A stretch of 46,415 nucleotides of DNA from Chitinophagales bacterium. Lineage in GTDB: Bacteria; Bacteroidota; Bacteroidia; Chitinophagales; CAIOSU01. Below, one piece after another: positions 2,141 through 33,535 of this stretch (the stretch's first letter is position 1; each line of letters begins with the position of its first letter). The stretch is from the NCBI GenBank assembly GCA_040877935.1, contig JBBDNB010000061.1, positions 1 to 46,415 on the forward strand, given 5' to 3'. Position numbers and translations under genes: made by a program. Under the pieces are notes generated by a model that was given only the letters and a program-made list of their open reading frames with translations, searched no databases and was not told where the DNA came from.

Positions 2141-3114
2141 GACTACATGAAAATAAGGAACTGTTTAAAGATGCGGTAATTGCCGCTGCGCAGCAAAAAG
2201 GCATACGTGAAGTTTATGTTGAAAAGGATTATTGGGTAACGTATGCACTGTTTCAGATTTTCAAAAACGAAATTGGCAAAGAAACAATCTTCAAAGGAGG
2301 AACAGCTTTACAGAAATGCTTCGGATTGATACAGCGATTTTCTGAAGACATTGATTTGGTTGTGTTGCGAAACAAAGGTGAAACGGGCAACCAACTGAAA
2401 ACTAAAATCAAAAAGATTTCCAAAAGCGTATCAAAAGTGCTCCCGGAAATAGTGGTTGATGGCATAACCAATAAAAAAGGGATGATACGAAAAACAGCAC
2501 ATAGCTATGAAAAAAAATTCACTGGTCATTTTGGACAAGTTCGGGACAACATTATCATAGAATCCACTTGGTTGGGCAATTTTGAACCTTATTCTACTGT
2601 AAAAATAAGCTCGTTCATCTATGAAATGATGTTGAAAAACAAGCAACAGACCATTATTGATGAATATGGAATAAATTCATTTGAAGTCTTGGTTTTGAGT
2701 CCGAAAAGGACATTGTGCGAAAAAATAATGAGTTTGGTTCGTTTTTCTCAAACCCAAGAACCGATAAACGACTTGCGAAATAAAATTAGACACATTTACG
2801 ACATTCACCTATTATTGAAAGATAGCGAGCTAAGCGCTTTTATGCAGTCGAAAGACTTTGATACAATGCTTTTACGTGTAGCAAATGACGACATAGAAAG
2901 TTTCAAGAGCAACAACGAATGGCTCACAAATCACCCAATAGATACAATTATATTTTCAAAAACAGCCGACACTTGGAACAAAATCAAAAATGTTTACTCC
3001 GGTAGTTTCAGTGAATTAGTGTTTGGTAAACTTCCAGAGGAAAAAGAAATACTGAAAACGTTGTCTAAAATAGCTGAGAGGTTAAAATCCATTAAATGGA
3101 ACATAAAACTATAA
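2137..3114 (+). CDS. abiEii: AbiEii-like nucleotidyltransferase toxin
   Basis: The 325-residue protein carries the AbiEii/AbiGii nucleotidyltransferase signature: Lys-Gly-Gly-Thr-Ala-Leu-x-Lys at 53-60 and Arg-Phe-Ser-Glu-Asp-Ile-Asp-Leu at 67-74. The Gly-Gly-Thr and the acidic pair match the nucleotide- and metal-binding elements of the DNA polymerase beta fold. A Val-Glu-Lys-Asp-Tyr-Trp segment at 28-33 is also typical. Relatives transfer nucleotides to tRNA or other targets and stop growth when not neutralised. The start overlaps the antitoxin stop (ATGA). The length is usual for the family and no key residue is missing, so I expect it to be functional. Role in phage defence is inferred from the family. 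Confidence 0.85.
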   Translation: MRLHENKELFKDAVIAAAQQKGIREVYVEKDYWVTYALFQIFKNEIGKETIFKGGTALQKCFGLIQRFSEDIDLVVLRNKGETGNQLKTKIKKISKSVSKVLPEIVVDGITNKKGMIRKTAHSYEKKFTGHFGQVRDNIIIESTWLGNFEPYSTVKISSFIYEMMLKNKQQTIIDEYGINSFEVLVLSPKRTLCEKIMSLVRFSQTQEPINDLRNKIRHIYDIHLLLKDSELSAFMQSKDFDTMLLRVANDDIESFKSNNEWLTNHPIDTIIFSKTADTWNKIKNVYSGSFSELVFGKLPEEKEILKTLSKIAERLKSIKWNIKL

Positions 3115-3154
3115 GGAATTGCCAAAGCCATAGACCCGTAAAAAATCAACCCTA

Positions 3155-3173
3155 AACCCTACTCCAAAACCAC
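3155..3173. repeat. Repeat copy B (core of the biotin-carrier 3' end)
   Basis: Nineteen bases are identical to 5891-5909 at the stop codon of the biotin-carrier gene, and the 16-bp core CCTACTCCAAAACCAC (3158-3173) is also identical to 1263-1278. Similarity stops right of the core. It lies in the same orientation as copies A and C and separates the AbiE module from the deaminase module. Confidence 0.7.
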
Positions 3174-3319
3174 TGGCCCATTGCTGGTGCATGAGGTCTA
3201 GCCGATGAGCGTAGCCTGCTTGTGCCTCTCTAAAAAAAACATTTTGAAACACCACTCGATTTGAATGGCTGAAAATGCAGATATTTCCCTAAATTTAGCT
3301 TGCAGTTCAACCCTGAAAT

Positions 3320-3524
3320 ATGAATCTACCTGAAATTAAAAATAGTGAAGTTGTTGTCTTCAAACCAAAAGGTGGACAAACCGAATTTCAGGTGGTGCTT
3401 GATGGTGAACACGATACAGGCGAAGTTCAATTTCAACAGTTTTATCATCAACTACGATATCAAGTACCGCATGGGCAAGGCTTTGTTTGGGAAGGAAAGT
3501 CTGAACTATGATGAAGATGATTAA
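3320..3524 (+). pseudogene. Mosaic remnant: RhuM-like N-terminus joined to another gene's tail
   Basis: A frame from ATG 3320 begins with about 33 residues that resemble the start of RhuM-type proteins (Val-Val-Val-Phe-Lys-Pro, then Phe-Gln-Val-Val-Leu-Asp-Gly-Glu), but the expected Thr-Val-Trp-Leu motif never arrives and the frame ends at 3511. From about 3402 a second frame reads a better, more protein-like sequence (Asn-Phe-Asn-Ser-Phe-Ile-Ile-Asn-Tyr-Asp-Ile-Lys-Tyr) to a stop at 3522-3524, resembling the tail of a beta-barrel protein. The likeliest reading is two unrelated gene ends fused by recombination at about 3400-3420. Neither piece is likely to be functional. Confidence 0.45.
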
Positions 3525-3534
3525 ATGATGGACT

Positions 3535-3924
3535 ATGATAAGGCAAAAGTATAAATACAGCGAATTAACCAGCAAAATTATTGGATGTGCCATGACGGTT
3601 CATTCAGCCTTGGGCAATGGTTTTCAAGAAGTCATCTATCAGCGAGCGCTGGAAATTGAAATGGCAGACCAAGGCATTGGGTTCAGTCGTGAACATGAAA
3701 TGCCTATTTATTACAAACAGCAGCAAATTGGCACTCGCAGGGTTGATTTCTTGGTGGAAGGGATTGTTTCAGTTGAACTCAAAGCCATTATTAAATTGGA
3801 AGATGTGCATTTAGCACAAGCCATCAATTACCTAGAAGCCTATGATTTAGAGATTGGCTTGTTGATTAATTTTGGTTCTGAAAGCATGGGATTTAAGCGA
3901 ATTCAGAACAAAAAATTCAAATAA
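3535..3924 (+). CDS. GxxExxY-family PD-(D/E)XK-like protein
   Basis: This 129-residue protein matches the GxxExxY family. The naming motif is Gly-Phe-Gln-Glu-Val-Ile-Tyr at 29-35, preceded by the usual Ile-Gly-Cys-Ala-Met-x-Val-His-x-x-Leu-Gly. A nuclease-like triad is present: Arg-Val-Asp-Phe at 69-72 and Glu-Leu-Lys at 81-83, the E-x-K of the PD-(D/E)XK superfamily, and the later Gln-Ala-Ile-Asn-Tyr-Leu segment also fits. Length is normal. The biochemical role of the family is not established, though its members are common in Bacteroidota accessory DNA. It precedes the deaminase gene by 54 bp on the same strand and may be co-transcribed with it. Confidence 0.85.
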   Translation: MIRQKYKYSELTSKIIGCAMTVHSALGNGFQEVIYQRALEIEMADQGIGFSREHEMPIYYKQQQIGTRRVDFLVEGIVSVELKAIIKLEDVHLAQAINYLEAYDLEIGLLINFGSESMGFKRIQNKKFK

Positions 3925-3978
3925 ACTCATCAAGGTAATCCTGAAATCAAGAGAAATCAAAGTTCAGACAATTAGTTT

Positions 3979-5457
3979 ATGGCAAAAAAGAAATACACAG
4001 ATAAAGAACTCATGCAAATGGCCATTGACGAGATGAACAAAAGCGTCAATGAACCAAGACCTGACGGCAAAGTGCCGCCAAAGGTGGGTGCTGTTTTACT
4101 TTTCCCAGATGGTAGAATAGAAACCGCGTTTCGTGGAGAACTAAGAGAAGGTGACCATGCAGAATTCACACTGTTAGAAAGAAAACTAGCCAATGAAAAT
4201 TTAGAAGGATGTACCCTATTTACAACCCTTGAGCCTTGTGTGGAGAGAAATCCACCTAAAGTGCCTTGTTGTAAAAGAACCACCAATGCCCGCATCAAAA
4301 AAGTGTTTGTGGGAATAGAAGACCGGGATCCAACAGTAGATGGCAAAGGAATCAAGCATCTCGAGAACCACGGTGTTGAAGTCAAAATGTTTGACCGAGA
4401 GTTTCAGCGAATCATAGAAGAAGAAAATAAGGCCTTCTTAAAACAAGCTTTAGAAAGAAAAAGAGAAACGGAAGAAGAAGATCTGCGCACAGCTATTGAA
4501 CTTCCTGTAGCGAACTACGATAGCAGCAAATTTTCAGAGCTTGCACTTCAAAAGTTCATCAAAGAATCCAATCTTGATTTCAAATCAACGGATGAAGCCT
4601 TTTTAGAATACTTGGCAGATTTTGGAGCCATGGAGTGGGATAAAGAAAAAAAGCAATTTATCCCTACGGGCTATGGCGTTTTGCTTTTTGGAAATAATCC
4701 ACGCACCAAATTCAAAAATGCCGTTTTGAAAGCACACGTAACTTATAGTGGCAGCAAAATAGAACCAAAAGATTTTGATCAAGCATTGGTGCTCTTGCCC
4801 GACCAAATTGAGGAATGGTTAAAGAAAGTATTGCCCTTATCAAAAGATACAAGCAGCTTTAAAAGAAAGGATGTTCCTGATTTTCCCATTGAAGTACTGC
4901 GTGAAGCCATCGTCAACGCTTTGGTGCACAGAGATTATGAAATTGAAGGTGCAAAGTGTGAAATCAAGATTGATGAGAATAAAGTTATCGTAACCAGCCC
5001 GGGCAAACCACTACCGGCAATTTCCTTGGATGAACTCAACACCTTTGAAGCACCCTCTCTAAGCCGCAATCCTATTATTACATACGCTTTCAGTTTAATG
5101 GATTATGTGGAGGAAAAAGGATTTGGAATGAAAACCTTTAAGTCTTTAAATAAAGATTACGGCTTACCCATTCCGAAATACACCTATAAAGAACCATTCT
5201 TAAAGTTGACTTTCCCACGTACGGTTGAGGCTGTTAGAGAACTACCCACCGGTGGCGCTGTTGGCGAATTGGATAACCAAGAATTGAAGCTCTTCGAATT
5301 ATTCAGAAGCAATAAAGCATACTCAAAGTCTGAGTTTGTTGAGCAAACGGGATTAGCTTCTCGCACGGCTGAAAGAATGTTGAAGAGATGGGTGGATTTA
5401 AATTTACTTAGGAAAGAAGGTGGCGGAAAGTATCTGAAATATGTAATCAATGAATAA
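3979..5457 (+). CDS. RibD-like deaminase fused to RecG/AlbA-type HATPase and winged helix
   Basis: A 492-residue, three-part protein. Residues 8-140 are a zinc deaminase domain: His60-Ala-Glu62 supplies the zinc His and the catalytic Glu, and Glu-Pro-Cys87 with Cys97/98 supplies the other ligands. The wide Cys spacing and the Asp-Pro-Thr-Val-Asp-Gly-x-Gly segment resemble the pyrimidine deaminase of RibD more than CMP deaminases. Residues 145-170 are a charged linker. Residues about 175-410 match the C-terminal region of Schlafen-AlbA_2 proteins, with a GHKL-like HATPase N-box (Arg-Glu-Ala-Ile-Val-Asn313-Ala-Leu-Val-His-Arg-Asp-Tyr) and a Gly-Phe-Gly motif at 381-383. Residues 434-490 form a winged helix. 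The AlbA_2 domain that normally sits first is absent and the deaminase takes its place. A nucleotide-sensing defence effector is my inference. Confidence 0.85.
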   Translation: MAKKKYTDKELMQMAIDEMNKSVNEPRPDGKVPPKVGAVLLFPDGRIETAFRGELREGDHAEFTLLERKLANENLEGCTLFTTLEPCVERNPPKVPCCKRTTNARIKKVFVGIEDRDPTVDGKGIKHLENHGVEVKMFDREFQRIIEEENKAFLKQALERKRETEEEDLRTAIELPVANYDSSKFSELALQKFIKESNLDFKSTDEAFLEYLADFGAMEWDKEKKQFIPTGYGVLLFGNNPRTKFKNAVLKAHVTYSGSKIEPKDFDQALVLLPDQIEEWLKKVLPLSKDTSSFKRKDVPDFPIEVLREAIVNALVHRDYEIEGAKCEIKIDENKVIVTSPGKPLPAISLDELNTFEAPSLSRNPIITYAFSLMDYVEEKGFGMKTFKSLNKDYGLPIPKYTYKEPFLKLTFPRTVEAVRELPTGGAVGELDNQELKLFELFRSNKAYSKSEFVEQTGLASRTAERMLKRWVDLNLLRKEGGGKYLKYVINE

Positions 5458-5459
5458 TC

Positions 5460-5488
5460 ACTCGCCACTCGGTCGCCATTTTGGCGAG
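5460..5488. repeat. Three-arm palindromic unit 1
   Basis: The layout is ACTCGCCA, 5 nt, TCGCCA, 3 nt, TGGCGAG. The right arm can pair with either left arm, giving two mutually exclusive hairpins. It begins 3 bp after the stop codon of the deaminase fusion gene. Confidence 0.8.
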
Positions 5489-5520
5489 ATAGAACTATTC
5501 CATAAAAATAATCCATTCTT

Positions 5521-5549
5521 ACTCGCCAATTACTCGCCAAATTGGCGAG
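5521..5549. repeat. Three-arm palindromic unit 2
   Basis: The layout is identical to unit 1 (ACTCGCCA, 5 nt, TCGCCA, 3 nt, TGGCGAG), with a different 5-nt spacer and a different 3-nt spacer. Its inner stem is a perfect 8-bp inverted repeat CTCGCCAA/TTGGCGAG. The offset from unit 1 is 61 bp. Confidence 0.8.
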
Positions 5550-5582
5550 CAAGCGAATTATCAGAATTTATCTTTAGTTATA

Positions 5583-5612
5583 TCGCGCCACTTTGGCGGG
5601 ATAATGGCGCGA
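5583..5612. repeat. Three-arm palindromic unit 3, inverted
   Basis: Read on the minus strand it has the same plan as units 1 and 2: left arm TCGCGCCA, 5 nt, second arm CCGCCA, 3 nt, right arm TGGCGCGA. The outer arms form a perfect 8-bp inverted repeat. Arm sequences differ slightly (CGCGCCA versus CTCGCCA) but changes are matched in the partner arm, which keeps the pairing. Confidence 0.75.
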
Positions 5613-5875
5613 AAGAGAAAAAGACTAAGCAATGGACCCACAAAGGCCTCAAACCAAATCTCCGAAAGGGCAATTGGACAAATTATTAACCAATAAAGAA
5701 TTTGACAATGTACAGTCCCTCGTTTCAAAGCCACACACAACTTGTCCCGTTTTTTCGGGATTGTCAAGCCACAAGCCAATTGTACCGGCCAAAGCTTGTC
5801 AAAGAGTGTGTCTTTCCCAACGCACGGACGACAGAAAAGAAAGCACGATTGCCCAACTTTTCATACCGCCAAACC

Positions 5876-5978
5876 GTTCCTCAATAATCTAACCCTACTC
5901 CAAAACCACCATCACTTGGTTTTTCTCTACGGCATCGCCTTGTTTTACAGAGATGCTTTTCACCACGCCATCACCGGG
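5876..5978. repeat. Repeat copy C (in the intact biotin-carrier gene)
   Basis: This is the partner of the direct repeat at 1245-1347. It covers about 28 C-terminal codons of the biotin carrier, its stop codon (5895-5897, minus strand) and 18 bp beyond. The 16-bp core shared by all three copies is 5894-5909 and spans the stop codon. Confidence 0.8.
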
Positions 5979-6395
5979 CGCTTTTAGTACATTTTCCATT
6001 TTCATGGCTTCCAGCACCAGTACTTCATCGCCCTTGCTGAGTTCCTGCCCTTCTTTTGCCAGCACTTCCAATACCAATCCCGGCATAGGCGCTTTAATGT
6101 CAGTCATTTTGCTTCCGGCCAGGGCACTCATGCCCAGTTCTTTCAGCAATAAATCAAAGCGGTCCTGCATTTTCACCGTATAGCTGTGTCCGTTGATCAG
6201 GAATGTAAAGGATTTTTCCTCGGTATCCACACTTTCCAGTTCGGCATTGTAGGAGCGATAGTCCAATATCACATGGTAAGATCCCTCCGCAATTTTTTGA
6301 ATGCAGGCCTCGGTTTTTTCACCATTTATGAATAGTTCATCTCGATTTTGCTCTATGTCAAAAGAGAAATTATTGTTTACGGTAGCCTTGTTCAT
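5895..6395 (-). CDS. Biotin carboxyl-carrier protein (acyl-CoA carboxylase type)
   Basis: A 166-residue biotinyl protein. The C-terminal 70 residues are a biotinyl/lipoyl domain with the biotinylation motif Glu-Ala-Met-Lys132-Met-Glu-Asn and the preceding Ala-Pro-Met-Pro-Gly-Leu. Lys132 would carry biotin, moving CO2 between a biotin carboxylase and a carboxyltransferase. The N-terminal 90 residues resemble the extra domain of stand-alone carriers linked to propionyl- or methylmalonyl-CoA carboxylase in Bacteroidota rather than fatty-acid AccB. I chose the start at 6395 because the 10 upstream residues are non-conserved in character. No carboxylase subunit is adjacent. Its 3' end is the target of the flanking repeats. 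A role with the mutAB operon in this window is plausible but not shown. Confidence 0.85.
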   Translation of the reverse strand: MNKATVNNNFSFDIEQNRDELFINGEKTEACIQKIAEGSYHVILDYRSYNAELESVDTEEKSFTFLINGHSYTVKMQDRFDLLLKELGMSALAGSKMTDIKAPMPGLVLEVLAKEGQELSKGDEVLVLEAMKMENVLKAPGDGVVKSISVKQGDAVEKNQVMVVLE

Positions 6396-6479
6396 GAATT
6401 TTAACTTTATCTGTAAAGGTAGCAATCCGCTTTTTAAAAAGGAAAGCCTTATTTTTGCTGGCTTAAAGTTAATATAGAT

Positions 6480-9065
6480 ATGCCCATCAAAACAAACCTC
6501 TACTTTTTATTATTATCAAGCCTTTTATTCATCACTGCCTGTTCCGGTACAAAAGAACTTACTGAAAAGGAAACGGAACTGGATGAAGTGGTCGTTTCCG
6601 GAGTCGATCGTGAATATCGTGCGGAGGCTACCAGGCATTTCGACCTGATCCACACCAAACTCGATGTGCGCTTTGACTGGAGCAAAAGCCATTTACTTGG
6701 AGTTGCAGACATCACTATGCGTCCTTATTTTTATCCTACAGACTCTGTAGTTCTTGATGCCAAAGGTTTTGACATTAACAGCATTCGTTTAATGAAAGGC
6801 AGTGAGCCGCTTGAACTTAGCTATGTGTATGATTCTTCACAACTAAATATTAAGCTTGATCGCTACTATAACCGAAATGATACTATTGCACTTCGCATTG
6901 ATTATGTGGCCAAACCCGATGAACTGGATGTAGTGGGCAGTTCTGCCATTGCTGCCGACAAGGGTTTGTATTTTATCAATCCGCTGGGTAAAATTCCGGG
7001 AAAACCACGGCAAATTTGGACACAGGGCGAGACCGAAGCCAGTTCCTGCTGGTTTCCCACCATCGACAAACCCAACCAACGCACCACCCAGGAAATCCTT
7101 ATTACTGTTGATACCAATTACACTACCCTTTCCAATGGCTTGATGTTTTCTTCCACAGACAATGGAGATGGGACAAGAACCGACTACTGGAAACAGGAAA
7201 AAGACCACACGCCCTATTTGTTTATGATGGCCATTGGTGAATTTTCCATTGTGGAAGATGAATGGAACGGCATGGAAGTGAACTACTATGTTGAGCCGCA
7301 ATATGCCAAATATGCTAAACGAATTTTTGGCAATACACCCGAAATGATGACGCTTTATTCAGATTTGCTCGGTTATGAATATCCCTGGGAAAAGTACAAC
7401 CAGGTAGCTGTTCGCGATTTTGTGTCAGGAGCAATGGAAAATACATCTGCTTCGCTTTTTGGTGAATTTGTACAGCGCAATGATGCAGAGCTCGATCATC
7501 GGGATTATGAATCTATTGTAGCCCATGAGCTTTTTCATCAATGGTTTGGTGATTTGGTCACCTGCGAATCCTGGTCTAATCTGGCGCTGAACGAATCCTT
7601 TGCAACTTATGGCGAATACATCTGGATTGAGCACAAATACGGAATGGATCACGCGCAATACAACTGGCAAAATGATAAAAATGCATACTTGCATGAAGCC
7701 AGGGCTTATCAAGAAGACCTGATACGTTTTTACTATGAACATAGAGAAGAAATGTTTGACCGCCATACCTATCAGAAAGGCGGCTTGATATTGCATGCCC
7801 TGCGCAATTATATGGGCGATGATGCTTTTTATGCGGGCATTAGGGAATATCTGCACAGCAATGAATTTCAGCCGGTGGAGGCACATCACTTGCGCTTGGC
7901 TTTGGAAAAAGTCAGCGGAGAAGACCTCAACTGGTTTTTCAATCAGTGGTTTTACGGTTCGGGACATGCTGAGCTGAATATCAAACACCACTACAATGAC
8001 AGCCTGGGAGTTTTTTCACTGACTGTAGAGCAAATGCAGGATACTATTGACTACAGCTTTTTTAAGCTTCCGCTAAAAGTAGCTTTTCAGTTTGAGAATT
8101 CCATTCGCTATGAAAACATTGTAATTGACAACCAATGGAAGCAGTTTGAATTTGAGATGGACAGTCTGCCCGAAAATTATATTGTAGATGTTGAGCGTGT
8201 TTTGGTCGGCACAAGCAATTATCTCAATAAAAACAAAGCACACTGGATGAAGCAATTTCAAATGGCGGCACATTATCTCGACAAAGATGAAGCCCTTACT
8301 CAGCTGATGCCGGATATTGATCAGGCCGAAGTTCTGGATGTTTATGTTAAAGCCCTGGAAGATAATTTTTATGGCACGCGACTTTCTGCAATTCAAAATA
8401 TGCCTGTAGATACTGCTGCTGAAAAACGCATTGCACTTTTGTACAGCACAGCCAAAAAAGACAGAGAGGTGAAAGTGCGCATGGCCGCAATTGATAAATT
8501 GGGATCATTAGCAGATAAGAAAATCCTGGACAAACTTGAGCGGTTAATGGAAGAAGAGAAATCCAATATTGCCAAAGGCAGAATTTTAAAGGCCATAAAA
8601 GATATTGATGAAGGATTGGCTTTTGATTATGCAAAGCAATATACCGATGCTACAGAAATTCAATTGGCAGCAAATGTGGCGGATTTATTTGTCAAACAGG
8701 GGGGGATAGAAGAGCAGGCTTATTTTAAAGAGAAATTGTACGAGTTGCGCTCTTATTCCAAATATTATATCATCACTTTCTATGGAGATTTGCTTAAGAA
8801 ACTCGAAGCCCCTGCTATCTTAAACGGTGCAGAAGATTTGAAGCTCAATGCTATTTATGAGGGCTCCTGGTATATTCGCAAGGCGGCAGGTGATGCCCTG
8901 TATAGCGTGTGGAAAGCAGCTGCTGAAAAAGCAAAGGAAACTGAAAATACAGACTGGCAAAATACGGCTGATAGCATTGAAGCAGACCTGCAGGAAATCA
9001 TGGCCGCTGAGAAAACAGAGCGTGTCATAAAAGCCTACGAAAAGGACTTCACTTTCGAACTGTAG
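6480..9065 (+). CDS. M1-family aminopeptidase lipoprotein with HEAT-like C-terminus
   Basis: An 861-residue zinc metallopeptidase of the M1 (gluzincin) family. Gly-Ala-Met-Glu-Asn at 317-321 binds the free N-terminus of the substrate. His-Glu-Leu-Phe-His at 349-353 plus Glu372 (in Asn-Glu-Ser-Phe-Ala-Thr-Tyr) give the zinc site, and Tyr431 is the likely transition-state Tyr. A lipoprotein signal ends in Ile-Thr-Ala-Cys21, so the enzyme is probably anchored in the envelope and degrades peptides outside the cytoplasm. After about residue 590 the C-terminal third is made of helical HEAT-like repeats. The gene is divergent from the biotin-carrier gene with 84 bp between the start codons. No sign of truncation. 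Confidence 0.92.
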   Translation: MPIKTNLYFLLLSSLLFITACSGTKELTEKETELDEVVVSGVDREYRAEATRHFDLIHTKLDVRFDWSKSHLLGVADITMRPYFYPTDSVVLDAKGFDINSIRLMKGSEPLELSYVYDSSQLNIKLDRYYNRNDTIALRIDYVAKPDELDVVGSSAIAADKGLYFINPLGKIPGKPRQIWTQGETEASSCWFPTIDKPNQRTTQEILITVDTNYTTLSNGLMFSSTDNGDGTRTDYWKQEKDHTPYLFMMAIGEFSIVEDEWNGMEVNYYVEPQYAKYAKRIFGNTPEMMTLYSDLLGYEYPWEKYNQVAVRDFVSGAMENTSASLFGEFVQRNDAELDHRDYESIVAHELFHQWFGDLVTCESWSNLALNESFATYGEYIWIEHKYGMDHAQYNWQNDKNAYLHEARAYQEDLIRFYYEHREEMFDRHTYQKGGLILHALRNYMGDDAFYAGIREYLHSNEFQPVEAHHLRLALEKVSGEDLNWFFNQWFYGSGHAELNIKHHYNDSLGVFSLTVEQMQDTIDYSFFKLPLKVAFQFENSIRYENIVIDNQWKQFEFEMDSLPENYIVDVERVLVGTSNYLNKNKAHWMKQFQMAAHYLDKDEALTQLMPDIDQAEVLDVYVKALEDNFYGTRLSAIQNMPVDTAAEKRIALLYSTAKKDREVKVRMAAIDKLGSLADKKILDKLERLMEEEKSNIAKGRILKAIKDIDEGLAFDYAKQYTDATEIQLAANVADLFVKQGGIEEQAYFKEKLYELRSYSKYYIITFYGDLLKKLEAPAILNGAEDLKLNAIYEGSWYIRKAAGDALYSVWKAAAEKAKETENTDWQNTADSIEADLQEIMAAEKTERVIKAYEKDFTFEL

Positions 9066-26256: not shown

Positions 26257-27144
26257 TCAGGAATGTGCTGTTGAAGCATTTCGGTTTCTGTTTTTTATGT
26301 CCGCTAAAATAAACAACAACAAAGGAATCAACATATGCGGCATTCTGAAAAATGACTGCCACCAGTATTGATGCAAACTACTCAATGCAAAATCTGGGTT
26401 GTAATACACCATAACCCTTGCAAGCGCAGTGAACAATCCCCAAATAGCGGCATAGACCAACAGTGGTTTTTCCGTTTTTTCCCAATAAATTCCAATAGCC
26501 ACTAAAAAATCCAGGAAGCCTGCCGTGCGCAAGAAAAATTCTGCAAAAGTTTCATTTACAGGCAGCATGACCATTGTCATTTCCATAAATTTTACCGGAA
26601 CGGGATAAAAACCAAAAGCATATAAACCGTGTCCCACAAATGTTAAACTAACGGCCAATTTCAAGCCGAAAATCAATTGTTTTTTATTGAAAGTATTTCT
26701 ACAGAAAAGGTACAGAAATAATGGCGCAGAAAACTGCAATGTGTATTCTATAAACTGACCCTGTGAAGAAAAATGATCGAGGAAATAAAGGAGTGCCAAA
26801 ATGATAAGACCTGCCGTGGAGAGTAAAAGCAGGATATCTCCTTTCTGTTTTAAGTCCTTTTTGAAGAGCACAAAAATGGAAGTGGCTAAATAAAGAAACC
26901 CCAAAGCATAGCGCGGATAATCCAATACCGCTTCTGCGAGATCGCTTCGGGCATATTCTTCCCAGCTCATGTTGAGCAATGATTGCACGGTATTTTCCAG
27001 TAGGTTCTGATTCCAAAAAAATGCACTCAATGGAATATCAAAAAAGAAATGATGATAGGCCCTGCCTGCCAAAACCGTAAAAGCAGCGATTTTTAAAAAG
27101 GAAAAAATCCATTGTCTTTCTTTATCCGAATATTGCGTGATCAT
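26257..27144 (-). CDS. Polytopic membrane protein (DoxX-like)
   Basis: A 295-residue integral membrane protein with about seven helices. It is recognised only in general terms: conserved-looking His and Trp residues (Arg-Ala-Tyr-His-His, Gly-His-Gly-Leu-Tyr-Ala-Phe-Gly) and an overall layout similar to DoxX-type or electron-transport-linked membrane proteins. The His residues near helix ends could bind a cofactor. Its function is not known. The start is 144 bp before the divergent metallophosphoesterase and both may share that control region. Confidence 0.6.
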   Translation of the reverse strand: MITQYSDKERQWIFSFLKIAAFTVLAGRAYHHFFFDIPLSAFFWNQNLLENTVQSLLNMSWEEYARSDLAEAVLDYPRYALGFLYLATSIFVLFKKDLKQKGDILLLLSTAGLIILALLYFLDHFSSQGQFIEYTLQFSAPLFLYLFCRNTFNKKQLIFGLKLAVSLTFVGHGLYAFGFYPVPVKFMEMTMVMLPVNETFAEFFLRTAGFLDFLVAIGIYWEKTEKPLLVYAAIWGLFTALARVMVYYNPDFALSSLHQYWWQSFFRMPHMLIPLLLFILADIKNRNRNASTAHS

Positions 27145-27188
27145 TAAGTCAGTATTAATTTTTTATAGTGAAAATCCCTGCCTTTGCT

Positions 27189-27196
27189 TAATTTTG
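27189..27196 (+). promoter_or_regulatory. -7 element of the metallophosphoesterase gene
   Basis: TAATTTTG matches TAnnTTTG exactly. The TTG that opens the long reading frame (27184) lies upstream of this element, so it cannot be the true start. This, with the signal peptide, supports GTG 27289. Confidence 0.5.
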
Positions 27197-27288
27197 TTGA
27201 ACTATATAAAACCCAAAAGCATTCTTTGGACTTTCATATCAATAATTCCTTTGGCAATATTCGCAACTATTTTAAAACATTTACCCAG

Positions 27289-30285
27289 GTGAAAACTATT
27301 TTCTCACTTTTTTTTCTTTTCTATTTTACAATTAACACAATAGATTTAAGTGCTGCTACTGAAAAGTACCGTATTATGTGGCGGGACGATCCTTCTACAA
27401 CTATTTGTGTTGGTTGGTCGCAAATTGGTGGAGGAAATGCTACCGTGTATTATGACACTACTGATTACGGGGGCAATCTTTCAGCTTTTCAATTTTCGCA
27501 TGGAGTGGACAGGAGCACCAACTATAAAGGCATGGACCACCGTTTTTCAAGAATCAGTGGCTTGCAGCCCAATACGGCCTATTATTTTTACATAGAAGAT
27601 GCAGATGGACCCAGCCAGATTTTTTGGTTTAAAACCGTGCCTGATCATTCTTATGAAACGCTTTCTATAGTTGCTGGAGGAGATTCACGAAACAACCGTA
27701 CGCCTCGACAAAAGGCCAATTATATGGTGAGTAGGCTTAGGCCTCATGCCGTGTTTTTTGGTGGGGATATGACAGATGGCAATTCCAACGGGGAATGGCA
27801 GGATTGGTTAGACGATTGGCAATTGACAATTGGTTCTGACGGGCGTATGATTCCAATTATTGCGGCAAGGGGAAACCACGAATTTTCCAATAATGATATT
27901 ATAGATATTTTTGACACACCTGGTGGGGATGTTTATTATGCGCTTAGTTTTGGTGGGGATTTACTCAGGGCATATACTCTGAACAGTATGATATTTGCCG
28001 GGGGCGCACAAAATTCCTGGTTGGACAATGATTTAACTGCTCATTCGCAGAGCATATGGAAAATGGCACAATATCATTTACCAACCCGTCCACACGTTTC
28101 CTCTAAATTTGACAATCCCATTCAATATGCCAGCTGGGCGCAGACTTTTTACAATCACAATGTGCAATTGGCTGTAGAATGTGACGCGCATTGCGTGAAA
28201 ACAACCTGGCCGGTGATTCCCGATACAGGGCCAGGCAGCGATGAGGGTTTTTTAAGGGATGATTTAAATGGCACGGTTTATACTGGTGAAGGTTGTTGGG
28301 GAGCACCTACAAGGTCTGCAGATGACACCAAATCATGGACGCGCAGTTCCGGGAGCTTCAACCAATTTAAATGGATATTGATAGACCGCTATAAAATGGA
28401 AATCCGAACCATTAAAGTGGACAATGCTTATACAGTTGGGATGGTAGATGACGAAGACCTGTGCAAAATGCCCAATAACCTTGATGTTTGGGATCCGGGC
28501 AATGGAGACAAAGTAGTTGTGATTGAAAATCCCGATTTAAAAGCCCCGGATATTGGACTCATTCAACCCGAAAATGGGCTTTTTTTTGTCGATACGTATC
28601 CCATCCAATTTAAAGCAACAGCATCTGACAATAATGGAAGTGGAATTAATTATGTAGAGTTTTTGGCAAACAATCAATCCATTGGTAGGGATTCTGCTGC
28701 ACCATATAGTATTAAATGGACAGCTCCTGCTTTTGGAAATTATATGATCCGGGCAAAGGCAGTTGACAATAATGGCGAAACCAAGAAGTCTGAATGCAGG
28801 GATATAGCAGTGGGTGTTTCAGAAGGCTACAGCTATATATTGAATACTGATGACGATGCCGAGGAATTGCAGTACAACAACTCCATGATTTTGAATTCTG
28901 ATGTATTGAAAATTGTGGAATCGGCTTCTGTTCAAAAAGTTGGCCTTCGTTTTTCAGGGCTTAGCCTGCCCAAAGATGCACAGCTAATTGAAGCCAGGAT
29001 TGTTTTTACAGCGAGCCATACGGATGCATCACCTGCCAATATCAATATCAAAGCCCAGCGATCTGCTTCAGCCCCTTCTTTTTCAGGCAACTTGTTTGAT
29101 ATTTATTTCAGACAGTTGACACAGGCAAATGTTAACTGGCAGCCCTATCCCTGGACCAATGTAGGTTCAACATACAGCACCCCTGATTTGAGCAATGTAA
29201 TTCAGGAAGTACAAAACCTGGGCGCATGGAACGAAAACAGTCCTTTGGTTTTTGTGCTGAGCGGAAGCGGAACCCGCAGGGCAGTGTCATTTGATGGCAA
29301 TACTGATTTGGCACCACGGCTTTATTTAAAGTATGATTATGGAAACAACAGGGCGCCAGAACTCGGTCCTGATCAGGAAATATGTTCCGGGCAATCGATT
29401 ATACTTGATGCGGGAAACCGTTTTAACCTGTATGAATGGAATGGGAATACCCTTCAGAATCTTCCAACTTTAACGGTCTCAAACACTGGATTCAATGAAG
29501 TTTGGGTGAGAAGTGGCCTGAACAACCAGGTCGTTGCTTACGATTCGGTAAGTGTAGAACAAATAAATTTGTCGGTATTAAATCTCGGTGCAGATCAGTT
29601 AATATGCCGGGGAGATTCATTATTGCTTGCTTCAAATAATGTGTATGATACTTATCAATGGAGCACAGGTGATGCTTCTGAAATGGTAAAAGTTGGAAAT
29701 GAAGGTTTTTACAAACTAACAGCAGCTATTGGCGCATGCGAAACTTCTGATTCAGTACAGGTCGGTTTTTTTCCGGAGCAAAGCATTCCATTGCCCGGTG
29801 ATACGCTGATTCAAAATGACAGCCAGTTTGTACTTGATGCCGGCAACCCTGCTTTTGTTGATTATCAGTGGTCGGACGGGACTTTTGGTGCTGCTATAAC
29901 TATTGACGCTCCGGGTACTTACACACTTACGGCAACAGATTCCAATAATTGTGAGTATTATAAAAGTGTGGTTGTAAATGCAGATATCCTGGCAAGTACA
30001 ATTGAAGAGAAAACAATAGAAGCAGAAATATTCCCCAACCCTGTAAGTGATAAATTATTCGTTCAGCTGAAAGGGGATTTAACAAACCGTATTAAAGAGA
30101 TTGGAATTTACACTGCCGATGGCCGGATGCTTAAAAACTTTCAAGACTTTTCAGAAAAAAACATTGAGCTGGATTTAAGCACTTTGAATTCCGGTATTTA
30201 CTTTCTTGTACTTAGAAGTGCTGATGAACAGCTGAATAAAAAAATTGTTAAGCTTCGAGTTTGTTCTGAAGACTTAAAACCATGA
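27289..30285 (+). CDS. T9SS-exported metallophosphoesterase, long paralogue
   Basis: A 998-residue secreted protein starting at GTG 27289, where a clear signal peptide begins (Lys-Thr-Ile-Phe-Ser-Leu-Phe-Phe) and is cut near Ala-Thr-Glu. An Fn3-like N-domain (about 22-115) precedes a calcineurin-like phosphoesterase core: Gly-Asp-Ser-Arg at about 131, Gly-Gly-Asp-Met-Thr-Asp at 158-163 and Gly-Asn-His-Glu at 195-198. The usual Gly-His-x-His is replaced by Cys-Asp-Ala-His. An Ig-like domain, a CBM96/DNRLRE-like domain and three PKD-like repeats follow. The C-terminus is a T9SS sorting domain (Phe-Pro-Asn-Pro-Val). Likely a cell-surface phosphatase. It carries nine residues beyond the usual final strand. 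Closest relative is the next gene. Confidence 0.85.
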   Translation: MKTIFSLFFLFYFTINTIDLSAATEKYRIMWRDDPSTTICVGWSQIGGGNATVYYDTTDYGGNLSAFQFSHGVDRSTNYKGMDHRFSRISGLQPNTAYYFYIEDADGPSQIFWFKTVPDHSYETLSIVAGGDSRNNRTPRQKANYMVSRLRPHAVFFGGDMTDGNSNGEWQDWLDDWQLTIGSDGRMIPIIAARGNHEFSNNDIIDIFDTPGGDVYYALSFGGDLLRAYTLNSMIFAGGAQNSWLDNDLTAHSQSIWKMAQYHLPTRPHVSSKFDNPIQYASWAQTFYNHNVQLAVECDAHCVKTTWPVIPDTGPGSDEGFLRDDLNGTVYTGEGCWGAPTRSADDTKSWTRSSGSFNQFKWILIDRYKMEIRTIKVDNAYTVGMVDDEDLCKMPNNLDVWDPGNGDKVVVIENPDLKAPDIGLIQPENGLFFVDTYPIQFKATASDNNGSGINYVEFLANNQSIGRDSAAPYSIKWTAPAFGNYMIRAKAVDNNGETKKSECRDIAVGVSEGYSYILNTDDDAEELQYNNSMILNSDVLKIVESASVQKVGLRFSGLSLPKDAQLIEARIVFTASHTDASPANINIKAQRSASAPSFSGNLFDIYFRQLTQANVNWQPYPWTNVGSTYSTPDLSNVIQEVQNLGAWNENSPLVFVLSGSGTRRAVSFDGNTDLAPRLYLKYDYGNNRAPELGPDQEICSGQSIILDAGNRFNLYEWNGNTLQNLPTLTVSNTGFNEVWVRSGLNNQVVAYDSVSVEQINLSVLNLGADQLICRGDSLLLASNNVYDTYQWSTGDASEMVKVGNEGFYKLTAAIGACETSDSVQVGFFPEQSIPLPGDTLIQNDSQFVLDAGNPAFVDYQWSDGTFGAAITIDAPGTYTLTATDSNNCEYYKSVVVNADILASTIEEKTIEAEIFPNPVSDKLFVQLKGDLTNRIKEIGIYTADGRMLKNFQDFSEKNIELDLSTLNSGIYFLVLRSADEQLNKKIVKLRVCSEDLKP

Positions 30286-30290
30286 TATAT

Positions 30291-30372
30291 AGCGGTCAGA
30301 CGGATTTTCTAATAGACTGTAAACCATGCCCAATAATATTCATGGCTTTAAAAAGTGAACCGTCAGACCGCT
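30291..30372. repeat. GTCAGAC hairpin, copy 3
   Basis: Left arm AGCGGTCAGACGG (30291-30303), right arm CCGTCAGACCGCT (30360-30372), with the central A opposite A. The loop is longer (56 nt) and holds a second inverted repeat CCATG...CATGG. It starts 5 bp after the stop of the long metallophosphoesterase gene. Confidence 0.75.
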
Positions 30373-30492
30373 TTTCAGAGTGGGCTCAGCTTTAGTTGAT
30401 ATTTGACAATACTGTCTGTTTTAAATCCTTCTGAAATTAAAATTGATACAATTTCCTTAATTTAGTACATCAAAGCAAAACCCCAATTACAT

Positions 30493-32289
30493 ATGAAATC
30501 AATATTCAGTTTTATCATCATTACTCTATTTCTGGCATTTCAAACTTCTGCGGAAACAGAAAAGTACCGTTTGATGTGGCGTGATGATCCATCCACAACT
30601 ATATGTATTGGCTGGGTACAGAATGGCGGAGACACTGCCACTGTTTATTTCGACACCACTGATCATGACGGTAATTTAGCCGCTTTTAAAGATTCGTTTA
30701 GTGTTGATCGTTTTGTAAGCCACAAAGGAATGGATCACCGCTTTTCAAGAATCAGTGGTTTACAGCCTAATACCGCTTACTATTTTTACATAGAGGATGC
30801 TGATGGTAGCAGTGATATTTTTTGGTTTAAGACAGCCCCGTACAATTCTTATGAAACGCTCTCAATTATAGCCGGAGGTGATTCGCGCAACAACCGCACA
30901 CCGCGACAAAAAGCCAATCGCCTTGTAAGCAAATTGCGGCCACATGCCGTTTTGTTTGGCGGTGATATGACTGACGACAACACAGATGCGGAATGGAAAG
31001 AATGGCTGGATGATTGGCAACTTACGATAGGTGAAGATGGCAGAATGATCCCAATAATTGCAGCAAGAGGAAATCACGAGCAATCTAACGATGATATTAT
31101 TGATATTTTCGACACCCCGGGTGGAGATGTTTATTATGCATTGAATTTTGGCGGAGATTTGTTAAGAGCCTATACATTGAACAGTATGATTTTTTCCGGC
31201 AATGCCCAAAACAATTGGTTGGAAAACGATTTGAGTACTAATTCACAGGTTATTTGGAAAATGGCACAATACCACTTCCCCATGCGTCCTCACACCTCAG
31301 GAAAATTTGACAATCAATTGCAATATTCAAGTTGGGCACAATCGTTTTACGATCACCATTTGCAATTGGCCGTTGAGTGTGATGCACATACTGTGAAAAC
31401 GACCTGGCCTATAATACCTGATTCCGGCCCCAATCATGATGAGGGCTTTTTAAGAGATGATGTAAATGGCACGGTCTATACCGGTGAAGGCTGTTGGGGA
31501 GCACCTTTGCGCGATAATGATGATGACAAAAGCTGGACGCGAAGTTCCGGTAAGTTCAACCAGTTTAAATGGATATTGATTGATCGCTATAAAATTGAAT
31601 TGAGAACTATAAAAGTTGACAATGGCGATTCAGTTGGAACGCTCAATGACCATGATATTCGCAGAGCTCCTGCAAACCTGGATGTTTGGGATCCGGGCAA
31701 TGGCGATACAGTGGTGATTATTAAAAATTCCGACCTGAGTGCACCGGGAATCAGTTTGATAGAGCCTGTTGATTACAGTCTTTTCCCGAATTTGGATCCC
31801 ATTAATATTGAAGCTTCAGTAGAAGACAACAATAGCGTGGGAATACAAAAAGTGGAATTTTTTGTTGATGGAGAAAAGATAGACTCCATTGCAGGCGGTG
31901 CCTCACCATACAATACACAATGGACACCACCCGATTTTGGTGAGTATATAATTAAGGCAAGAGTAGAAGACAGTTTGGGTGAATACATGACAAAATCAAG
32001 TTTGATTACTGTTGATAAAAGCATTTCTATAGATGATCCAACAGAAGAATTGGAATATACCCTCTCTCCCAATCCGGTTTCAAACCGCTTGTTTATTTCT
32101 TGCAAAAATTGTGAAAACACTCCTGATCATATTCGGATTTATGATATTTCCGGTAAGATGATAAAGAATTATACTGTATTGAATGAGCAGAACAATATTT
32201 TAAATTTGAATTTTTTAGATTCTGGTATTTATATTGTGGAAATTAATTCTAAATCTGTTACATTTAGCAGCAAAATTGTCAAACTCTAA
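30493..32289 (+). CDS. T9SS-exported metallophosphoesterase, short paralogue
   Basis: A 598-residue protein closely similar to the preceding one from the mature N-terminus (Thr-Glu-Lys-Tyr-Arg) to the Ig-like domain. A signal peptide is cut near Ser-Ala-Glu-Thr (about 20-21). The core has Gly-Asp-Ser-Arg at 129-132, Gly-Gly-Asp-Met-Thr-Asp at 156-161, Gly-Asn-His-Glu at 193-196 and Glu-Cys-Asp-Ala-His-Thr. It lacks the CBM96-like and PKD-like parts of its neighbour and goes from the Ig-like domain (about 415-505) straight to the T9SS tail (about 520-598, Pro-Asn-Pro-Val ... Lys-Ile-Val-Lys-Leu). The pair is a tandem duplication with later domain gain or loss. Substrate unknown. A 59-codon lipoprotein follows within 12 bp. 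Confidence 0.87.
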   Translation: MKSIFSFIIITLFLAFQTSAETEKYRLMWRDDPSTTICIGWVQNGGDTATVYFDTTDHDGNLAAFKDSFSVDRFVSHKGMDHRFSRISGLQPNTAYYFYIEDADGSSDIFWFKTAPYNSYETLSIIAGGDSRNNRTPRQKANRLVSKLRPHAVLFGGDMTDDNTDAEWKEWLDDWQLTIGEDGRMIPIIAARGNHEQSNDDIIDIFDTPGGDVYYALNFGGDLLRAYTLNSMIFSGNAQNNWLENDLSTNSQVIWKMAQYHFPMRPHTSGKFDNQLQYSSWAQSFYDHHLQLAVECDAHTVKTTWPIIPDSGPNHDEGFLRDDVNGTVYTGEGCWGAPLRDNDDDKSWTRSSGKFNQFKWILIDRYKIELRTIKVDNGDSVGTLNDHDIRRAPANLDVWDPGNGDTVVIIKNSDLSAPGISLIEPVDYSLFPNLDPINIEASVEDNNSVGIQKVEFFVDGEKIDSIAGGASPYNTQWTPPDFGEYIIKARVEDSLGEYMTKSSLITVDKSISIDDPTEELEYTLSPNPVSNRLFISCKNCENTPDHIRIYDISGKMIKNYTVLNEQNNILNLNFLDSGIYIVEINSKSVTFSSKIVKL

Positions 32290-32300
32290 AAACTAAAGTC

Positions 32301-32480
32301 ATGAAAAGAATCAATGTTTTAATGATGGTACTTGCTTTGTTCACTTTCACACTTGCCTCCTGCGGATGTCAGGAATGTGTTGGGGGCACATATGATGGTG
32401 ATGAAAATTGCTCTAGAAGTAGAATTGTAAAGCAATCTTTTAAAAGCTCATGTCAAAGTGGTGGTGGAACAGTGAAATAA
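32301..32480 (+). CDS. Small Cys-rich lipoprotein
   Basis: A 59-residue lipoprotein. A signal peptide runs to Thr-Leu-Ala-Ser-Cys21, a clear lipobox, so Cys21 would be lipidated. Four more Cys follow at 23, 26, 37 and 51 in a Gly- and Ser-rich tail. It starts 12 bp after the metallophosphoesterase and is probably on the same message. A strong terminator follows at 32507. Function unknown. It resembles in size and layout the lipoprotein at 36948. Confidence 0.75.
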   Translation: MKRINVLMMVLALFTFTLASCGCQECVGGTYDGDENCSRSRIVKQSFKSSCQSGGGTVK

Positions 32481-32506
32481 CCATCTCTCTTATTTAAAAA
32501 ATTACA

Positions 32507-32535
32507 GCCGGAGTTCGATCAACTTCGGCTTTTTT
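32507..32535 (+). terminator. Intrinsic terminator
   Basis: GCCGGAGTT, a 5-nt loop, AACTTCGGC (one G-T wobble), then six T. It ends the metallophosphoesterase-lipoprotein transcript. The gldA promoter lies beyond it. Confidence 0.85.
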
Positions 32536-32579
32536 GTTAAACTACGTTAAGATTTTTATGTATATTTTAAAAGGGCATT

Positions 32580-32587
32580 TAATTTTG
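32580..32587 (+). promoter_or_regulatory. -7 element before gldA
   Basis: TAATTTTG matches TAnnTTTG exactly, 28 bp before ATG 32615. It supports the later start, because the in-frame start at 32534 lies upstream of it. No good -33 TTTG is seen at the right distance. Confidence 0.45.
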
Positions 32588-32614
32588 TGTCATTTAAAAA
32601 TTCATCTTTGTCCT

Positions 32615-33535
32615 ATGGATATAAAAGTTGAAAATCTGAGTAAGATTTACGGAGCTCAAAAGGCAGTGGATGATATTTCCTTTGAGGTTAAAACAGGTGA
32701 GATACTCGGTTTTCTGGGTCCCAACGGAGCAGGGAAATCTACAACTATGAAGATTATTACCTGTTATATAGCAGCATCAAAAGGGATTGTTAAGGTAGGC
32801 AATTACAATAACCTTGAACATCAGGAAGCAATCAAAAAACATATTGGCTATTTGCCTGAAAACAATCCGCTTTATCCCGAAATGCCGGTAACAGAATTTC
32901 TTGAATTTATGGCCGCATTACAGGGTGTTCCAACAAAACATATTCCCGACAAGGTCAAACAAATGATAAAAATTTGCGGTCTTGATATAGAAAAACACAA
33001 ACGCATAGTCCAGTTATCAAAAGGCTACAGGCAAAGAGTTGGGCTGGCACAAGCCATGATCCACGATCCGGAAGTTTTGATTCTTGATGAACCAACATCT
33101 GGTTTAGATCCCAATCAAATAGTGGAAATCAGAAAATTGATCAGGGAACTGGGCAGGGAAAAAACAGTAATCCTGAGCACACATATTTTGCCCGAGGTAG
33201 AAGCTACATGCGACCGTATCTTGATTATCAATAAAGGTAAAGTTGTAGCTGATGGCACAGCAGATACATTAAGAAAGCAGGCCCAAGGCCAGGAGCTTTT
33301 AAAAATACAAATTGAAGGTGCAGCGCAGAATGATATTTTTTCTAAAATAAAAGCGCTCGATACTATAGATAAAGTCACTTTGGAGGAAAATTGTTTTATG
33401 TTGCAAAGCAAGCCCGGTGAGAGTTCACGTAAGGCGGTATTTAAATTATGTGTAGATCAGAACTGGATATTAACTGAGCTGACACCACTGGAAACTAAAT
33501 TAGAAGATGTTTTTGGACAATTGACAAATAATTAA
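32615..33535 (+). CDS. gldA: Gliding-motility ABC transporter ATPase GldA
   Basis: A 306-residue ABC ATPase from ATG 32615. The reading frame is open from 32534, but the family starts at Met-Asp-Ile-Lys-Val-Glu-Asn-Leu-Ser-Lys, and a promoter element lies between. Walker A is Gly-Pro-Asn-Gly-Ala-Gly-Lys-Ser at 35-42, the signature is Leu-Ser-Lys-Gly-Tyr-Arg-Gln at 134-140, and Walker B is Val-Leu-Ile-Leu-Asp-Glu-Pro at 154-160. With GldF and GldG it forms an ABC transporter required for gliding in Flavobacterium johnsoniae. Similar Nos-type transporters also exist in non-gliders. It leads the operon gldA-gldF-gldG-DUF4340. Confidence 0.9.
   Translation: MDIKVENLSKIYGAQKAVDDISFEVKTGEILGFLGPNGAGKSTTMKIITCYIAASKGIVKVGNYNNLEHQEAIKKHIGYLPENNPLYPEMPVTEFLEFMAALQGVPTKHIPDKVKQMIKICGLDIEKHKRIVQLSKGYRQRVGLAQAMIHDPEVLILDEPTSGLDPNQIVEIRKLIRELGREKTVILSTHILPEVEATCDRILIINKGKVVADGTADTLRKQAQGQELLKIQIEGAAQNDIFSKIKALDTIDKVTLEENCFMLQSKPGESSRKAVFKLCVDQNWILTELTPLETKLEDVFGQLTNN

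Follow-up and report, generated by a model that had tools for sequence, protein, structure and literature searches.

The array of three-arm palindromic units that lies directly behind a gene for a deaminase-HATPase-winged-helix fusion protein is probably a helically phased DNA platform for that protein's own winged helix (wHTH), situated at the 3' end of the gene. This reading, drawn from a comparison of loci, is suggested by the presence of the array in all loci compared, its fixed geometry, its 3'-only position, the co-variation of its arms with the wHTH, and wHTH exchange.

Three units behind the fusion gene

The window is the whole stretch of DNA that was analyzed, 46,415 bp in length. The features relevant to the array are as follows.

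3979 to 5457, plus strand: fusion gene, 492 amino acids, comprising deaminase, middle region, HATPase_c_4 and winged helix (open reading frame, Pfam, NCBIfam, PDB profile search, AlphaFold model)
3997 to 4413, plus strand: deaminase domain, residues 7-145 (dCMP_cyt_deam_1, 1.4e-12; Inv-AAD, 1.8e-10)
4948 to 5214, plus strand: HATPase_c_4 domain, residues 324-412 (Pfam, 8.9e-14)
5275 to 5448, plus strand: C-terminal winged helix (wHTH), residues 433-490 (secondary structure of the AlphaFold model)
5460 to 5488, plus strand: unit 1, with a direct pair of TCGCCA half-sites at 11 bp spacing plus an inverted one (sequence)
5521 to 5549, plus strand: unit 2, of the same type as unit 1 and 61 bp beyond it (sequence)
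5583 to 5612, minus strand: unit 3, GCGCCA type, resembling the arrays of loci L020 and L015 (sequence, locus comparison)
5876 to 5973, no strand assigned: right copy of a 98-bp, 93% direct duplication around the island of gene and array (left copy at 1245 to 1342)

Read directly from the sequence, unit 1 is ACTCGCCA-CTCGG-TCGCCA-TTT-TGGCGAG, unit 2 is ACTCGCCA-ATT-ACTCGCCA-AAT-TGGCGAG, and unit 3 is TCGCGCCA-CTT-TGGCGGG-ATAA-TGGCGCGA, which is the plan of units 1 and 2 on the opposite strand. The three units were found where the first-pass annotation had placed them, with the 61 bp it had given between units 1 and 2; units 2 and 3 are 62 bp apart. The stop codon of the fusion gene occupies 5455 to 5457 and two bases separate it from unit 1, in agreement with the earlier statement that the units begin right after the stop. 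A scan of the whole window by geometry alone returned exactly these three units, whereas Markov sequences of the same length (n=3) gave a mean of 0.33; the three units are far from chance. The genome (4.03 Mb) has no other occurrence of TCGCCA-N3-TGGCGAG. A REP/RAYT element was rejected because the three-arm pattern is confined to the array in this genome and the adjoining gene encodes a deaminase-HATPase-wHTH fusion.

Behind the arrays of both the window (5790 to 5840) and L014 (about 205 to 245 bp past the stop) lies a common tail, AAAGCTTGTCAAAGAGTGTGTCT, which is a piece of a longer intergenic element common to the two.

The fusion protein

The N-terminal domain was assigned to the RibD/dCMP deaminase type by Pfam, NCBIfam and the PDB profile search, and H60, A61, E62, P86, C87 and C97 are invariant in an alignment of 22 sequences. 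The AlbA label of the first-pass annotation needs correcting: the Pfam scan matched none in the fusion protein, whose domains are a RibD/dCMP-type deaminase, HATPase_c_4 and wHTH. Residues 133-343 are similar to PADLOC models of prokaryotic-Argonaute-associated proteins. The AlphaFold model is weak overall (mean pLDDT 67.6, pTM 0.43) and better in the wHTH region, where the means of 10-residue blocks are 70-91; in this model the likely recognition helix comprises residues 461-473 (5359 to 5397). The C-terminal wHTH is also the most variable part of the protein across the fusion family.

An AbiEi/AbiEii pair and a GxxExxY protein are encoded upstream of the fusion gene. Upstream of the GxxExxY gene, remnant frames are present at 3300 to 3535 that resemble, by eye, the start of RhuM joined to the end of HsdM.

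Arrays are tied to the deaminase fusion

Seventeen loci were taken from GTDB contigs and the others from searches of 298, 395, 395, 98 and 245 genomes (overlapping sets), which gave 3, 8, 12, 5 and 5 positives, respectively, at the set limits. Removal of repeats (L038-L041, L049-L055, L058) and one fragment (L030) left 36 loci for comparison, among which the near copies L032 and L034 were both counted. Arrays of half-sites were present directly past the stop in all 36 loci with a deaminase-HATPase-wHTH fusion, so that none of the homologues lacked them; an otherwise identical homologue without the units had been named in advance as a finding that would refute the association. Three-arm units were detected by the scan in 34 of the 36; before the arrays were counted, seven scanner hits were dropped by eye as chance (L015 +194, L017 +140, L021 +206, L027 +31, L032 +220, L034 +220, L043 +172). 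The other two loci carry variants recognized by eye: L012 has tandem TTGGCCGGA copies and an inverted arm, and L059 has only direct repeats of TTTGCGTCAGA, with a period of 11 and no inverted arm. In L060 the gene is shortened and the units are retained. The units start just past the stop codon, and in some loci they overlap it.

Motif searches gave the same picture. The CGCCA three-arm pattern has eight sites in 277 genomes, seven of them at a fusion gene, so that the random spread envisaged as the other refuting outcome is not seen; TCGCGACA-N3-TGTCGCGA, allowing at most one mismatch, was found only at the array (11 of 11 sites in six genomes). The bare CGCCA-N3-TGGCG palindrome is less exclusive, with 16 of 38 sites in arrays and 22 away from them (nine genomes). 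Across 34 loci, the arrays hold 188 exact half-sites, the 400 bp upstream of the genes 1, the genes themselves 3 and the remaining sequence 19, the corresponding null counts being 1, 1, 11 and 23. The sites at its own promoter that would mark a promoter-type autoregulatory operator are therefore not seen, as the single upstream half-site equals the null.

A general link of the motif to AlbA/HATPase genes, as first suggested, was rejected: the array is absent behind seven HATPase genes without a deaminase (six in the window's genome, one elsewhere), and a loose scan gave a single weak, mismatched hit behind three of the seven. Two of the HATPase paralogues in the window's genome, L005 and L009, contain short peptide repeats (TVEETVEETVEE; DHVTDHVTDHVTDHV) between the HATPase and the winged helix, which are missing from the aligned deaminase fusions.

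Geometry of the units

The spacing between arms is 11 bp where the arms end in GCCA and 12 bp where they end in GACA or GCAA, and the center of the unit is 3 bp, except in L036 and L037 (2) and L047 (0). Among neighboring units closer than 70 bp, 28 of 29 pairs have a pitch of 61-63 bp and the remaining pair one of 44; three wider pairs are 124, 126 and 91 bp apart. The spacers between units show no visible conservation. As the spacing is fixed in length and free in sequence, it suggests helical phasing. The plan occurs on either strand, being flipped in L015, L020 and window unit 3, and the fixed orientation to transcription that characterizes stoperators is therefore absent.

The array might instead be an RNA element: the 3' portion of the mRNA would fold into alternative hairpins and serve as a terminator, a stabilizer or a switch, or as an antitoxin-like repeat RNA. 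The units can form perfect short hairpins, and their position, starting just past the stop codon or overlapping it, would suit such a role. However, mismatches between arms show no excess of G-U (arm 1, 10 G-U and 15 A-C; arm 2, 20 and 28), units also occur in flipped orientation, L059 has no inverted arm, and the pitch is fixed while the spacer sequence is free. Rfam matches were likewise far below gathering scores: a scan of 3000 to 6500 gave five at E<=1, all far under, and the best over the units was mir-2 (23.9 versus 45.5 bits). An RNA element is accordingly very unlikely. A two-fold RNA switch, corresponding to the two rival folds per unit proposed at first, was rejected because of the lack of G-U bias, the strand flips and the direct repeats without inverted arms in L059; a type III toxin-antitoxin system seems doubtful too, as no RNA signature and no Rfam match were seen. 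The best reading of these comparisons is that the array would act at the DNA level. Of the first-pass interpretation, the nucleic-acid level of the pattern and its tie to the fusion gene are thus supported by the locus comparison, and the rival folds and the AlbA/HATPase link are not.

Arms co-vary with the winged helix

The arms vary widely among loci and include CTCGCCA, CGCGCCA, TCGCGACA, CTTGGACA, CATAGACA, CATGGACA, TCCGGACA, AAGGGACA and others. In a partial Mantel test of 32 loci (L034, L060, L012 and L059 were left out), in which shared ancestry is not fully removed, arm distance correlated with wHTH distance once the remaining protein was controlled for (r=0.54, p=0.0002); the converse correlation, with the remaining protein given the wHTH, was hardly present (r=0.12, p=0.07). 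By this measure, the arms track the C-terminal wHTH and not the remaining protein. The data fit the suggestion made at first pass that the units are putative binding sites of the fusion protein.

The wHTH is, judging from the alignments, exchanged between protein bodies. L044 and L031 are 64-97% identical over residues 1-420 and 33-47% beyond; L031 and L043 have divergent bodies, a tip that is 73-90% shared, and CTTGGACA arms in both; and L028 and L056, whose bodies are far from that of the window, have tips of the TAER type and TCGCCA as their arms.

More than one arm type is found in the arrays of the window, L024, L044 (where the proximal CATAGACA units were recognized by eye), L056 and L057. 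In four of these five mixed arrays, the stop-proximal unit agrees with the arms found at the locus whose wHTH is nearest. For L057, two loci tie as nearest in wHTH and only one of them fits the proximal unit; one of the tied loci carries the distal and not the proximal arm type. As matches to the distal unit, the arms of the nearest-body locus rank best for L044 and L057, second best for the window (0.87) and third best for L056 (0.86); the distal unit of L024 does not resemble the arms of its nearest-body locus. The mixed arrays look like traces of wHTH swaps. Unit 3 of the window (GCGCCA, reversed) is probably the relic of an L015/L020-like wHTH tip, to go by its resemblance to those arrays, which would account for the "matched arm changes" that had been remarked on in this unit.

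Neighboring genes and flanking duplications

In restriction-modification loci, the array could be an operator that controls the next gene, hsdR or hsdM. HSDR_N proteins follow the array in L018, L020, L032 and L012, HsdM follows it in L056, and similar genes were recognized by eye in L033 and L035. Elsewhere no such gene follows, yet the array is equally regular, and the next real gene in the window is convergent. We consider control of the next gene unlikely.

It was also considered that gene and array form a mobile module, with the units as its ends or recombination sites. Two-sided direct duplications of neighboring DNA (62-659 bp, 75-100% identical) were found in 10 of 32 loci, compared with 3 of 40 control positions in the window and 0 of 22 flank segments. 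The flanking ORFs, however, revealed no common recombinase by eye, the 5' side has no sites, and the duplications begin at varying distances and most are diverged; homologous recombination of the flanks would explain such duplications too. A mobile module is thus extremely improbable. The duplication at L021 is a 100% copy that stops where the contig does and could be an artifact of assembly.

Several observations concern the duplications themselves. A 19-bp part of the 98-bp duplication in the window recurs at 3155 to 3173, and all three segments (1245 to 1342, 3155 to 3173, 5876 to 5973) are copies of the 3' end of a gene named by eye as biotin-carrier-like. These copies frame two adjoining inserts, one with the AbiE pair and the other with the GxxExxY gene, the deaminase fusion and the array. 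In L031, L032, L034, L035, L037 and L024, partial, diverged copies of a neighboring gene stand before the fusion gene and again behind the array, the copy being the start of hsdR in L032, L034 and L035. The background test for duplications also revealed long direct repeats, 72-75% identical and up to 1 kb, at about 26600 to 32900 of the window.

Units in DNA without the gene

The eighth of the three-arm sites in the 277 genomes is L140 (genome G725), where four units of three types stand in a row between AbiEii and Fic genes; the fusion gene is absent from the 3 kb read. Units were also found in IMG/VR viral contigs: searches with three arm types returned 19, 39 and 116 stretches, the last number belonging to the TGGACA unit (80 of these stretches were analyzed). 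Control searches returned 4 and 3 stretches when the arms were scrambled and 3 when the spacing was wrong. Bases outside the pattern were palindromic as well, with means of 2.8, 1.9 and 2.5 of 4 (16, 28 and 53 distinct units) where chance is 1.0; because of its outer-base matching, the GCGACA set is probably part chance. An enrichment predicted for GCGCCA, the type of window unit 3, failed: of the 11 stretches found, most are GC-rich, and their outer bases match no better than chance (0.8 of 4 for 10 distinct units). Among them only L276 and perhaps the AT-rich L275 look real.

A further 37 distinct unit-like sites turned up in 1.51 Mb of selected viral DNA (some of it overlapping), and 11 of them have G[AC]CA ends in all three arms. 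Such ends in all arms were seen in none of 18 Markov sites, none of 11 sites in 86 kb of control viral DNA and none of 8 unit-like sites in 174 kb of bacterial flanks. Two or more units occur in 11 of 136 loci. Among 11 gene-less neighbor pairs within 300 bp (8 viral pairs and 3 from L140), 7 show at least two differences over the seven arm positions and 4 do not; for host pairs, the figures are 4 and 28 of 32. TGGACA units lie outside ORFs of at least 150 amino acids in 40 of 54 distinct cases, and at least five tRNA genes are present in 7 of 25 loci scanned.

Two viral loci show units of differing types together. Within 350 bp of L195 (8350 to 8700) are units or half-units of CGCGACA, AAGGGACA, CGAGGACA and CCGGACA type, the last two partly recognized by eye, and three units of differing types lie at 3826 to 3960 of L222, within a predicted viral reading frame of 2142 amino acids. 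A protein of L195 resembles (67%) a protein of Microcystis phage Mel-JY01; a search for relatives of an L164 protein gave no match.

The viral stretches that were searched, which cover part of most contigs, yielded neither a fusion nor a wHTH gene, and a pattern search of viral_contigs did not find the fusion protein either. Against plasmids and phages the protein gave 113 and 30 matching records, respectively, none covering more than 80% of the query. Typed unit sequences had no match in named phages, and a 20-base plasmid match in a Haladaptatus amino acid permease was taken as chance.

The favored explanation of the viral units is that they would be DNA decoys, since viruses would lose sites that merely harm them. 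They may alternatively be targets of the fusion protein or be bound by a viral protein not yet seen. In a literature search, the titles and abstract openings of the matches listed contained no description of such units as phage DNA decoys or as palindromes in huge-phage tRNA arrays. If either holds, the viral units would allow a direct test of DNA decoys aimed at a bacterial defense protein, or of its viral targets.

Proposed function of the array

In the platform reading, the C-terminal winged helix of the fusion protein would bind the units, as putative sites, in DNA. Within each unit, the two direct half-sites and the inverted one would be spaced by roughly one helical turn, and successive units would be about six turns apart, which would put all sites on one face of the DNA. 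Several copies of the protein could then assemble on the array, and the ATP-binding deaminase would be kept in a complex confined to the locus that encodes it. There, the complex might limit its own expression or activity, as a roadblock, a store or a sensor platform. Several points count against the platform: the Mantel test retains some shared ancestry, bare palindromes also lie away from arrays, the wHTH tie of L057 includes a locus with the distal arm type, given the mixed arrays and the viral units, sites are not always beside a matching gene, and sites behind a gene with none at the promoter are unusual for autoregulation.

We know of no described function for a deaminase-HATPase-wHTH fusion, and a literature search, covering titles and the starts of abstracts and few subscription papers, returned no description of a function for it or its array. 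Neighbors such as AbiE and type I restriction genes suggest that the fusion protein may have a role in defense. A specificity arms race is a broader scenario, which we regard as possible but doubtful: a host deaminase-ATPase defense protein would have to assemble on its own 3' array, the cassette of wHTH and array would be diversified by swaps, and viruses, some very large, would carry units or multi-specificity panels as decoys, often intergenic and near tRNA clusters. Were the platform real, a regulatory or assembly site would travel with an enzyme's exchangeable DNA-binding tip, and dozens of natural winged helices would have a recognition code readable from their own loci.

Comparison with known systems

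The stoperators of mycobacteriophage L5 are several sites for a cognate regulator that lie away from the promoter and are possible transcription roadblocks. The fusion array may be likened to them in having several candidate sites for its own regulator off the promoter, but it stands at a single place, with three sites per unit, an inverted arm and either orientation. In phage immunity regions, repressor and operators are exchanged en bloc. The fusion locus is similar in that DNA-binding specificity and sites would be inherited and swapped together; unlike those regions, it swaps only the C-terminal domain of an enzyme, and its sites lie behind the gene.

The best solved relatives of the N-terminal domain are RibD deaminases (PDB 3zpc and 2b3z, 7.4e-16). 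In contrast to RibD, the deaminase of the window is fused to a HATPase and a wHTH, and the protein misses the NCBIfam RibD equivalog cut-off (66.9 versus 156.35 bits).

The autoregulatory operators of restriction-modification C proteins, AbiEi and WYL regulators are likewise palindromic sites beside the gene of a defense-associated DNA-binding protein. The fusion array differs from these operators in lying behind the gene and not at the promoter and in its phased three-site units, and its predicted binder is a deaminase-ATPase.
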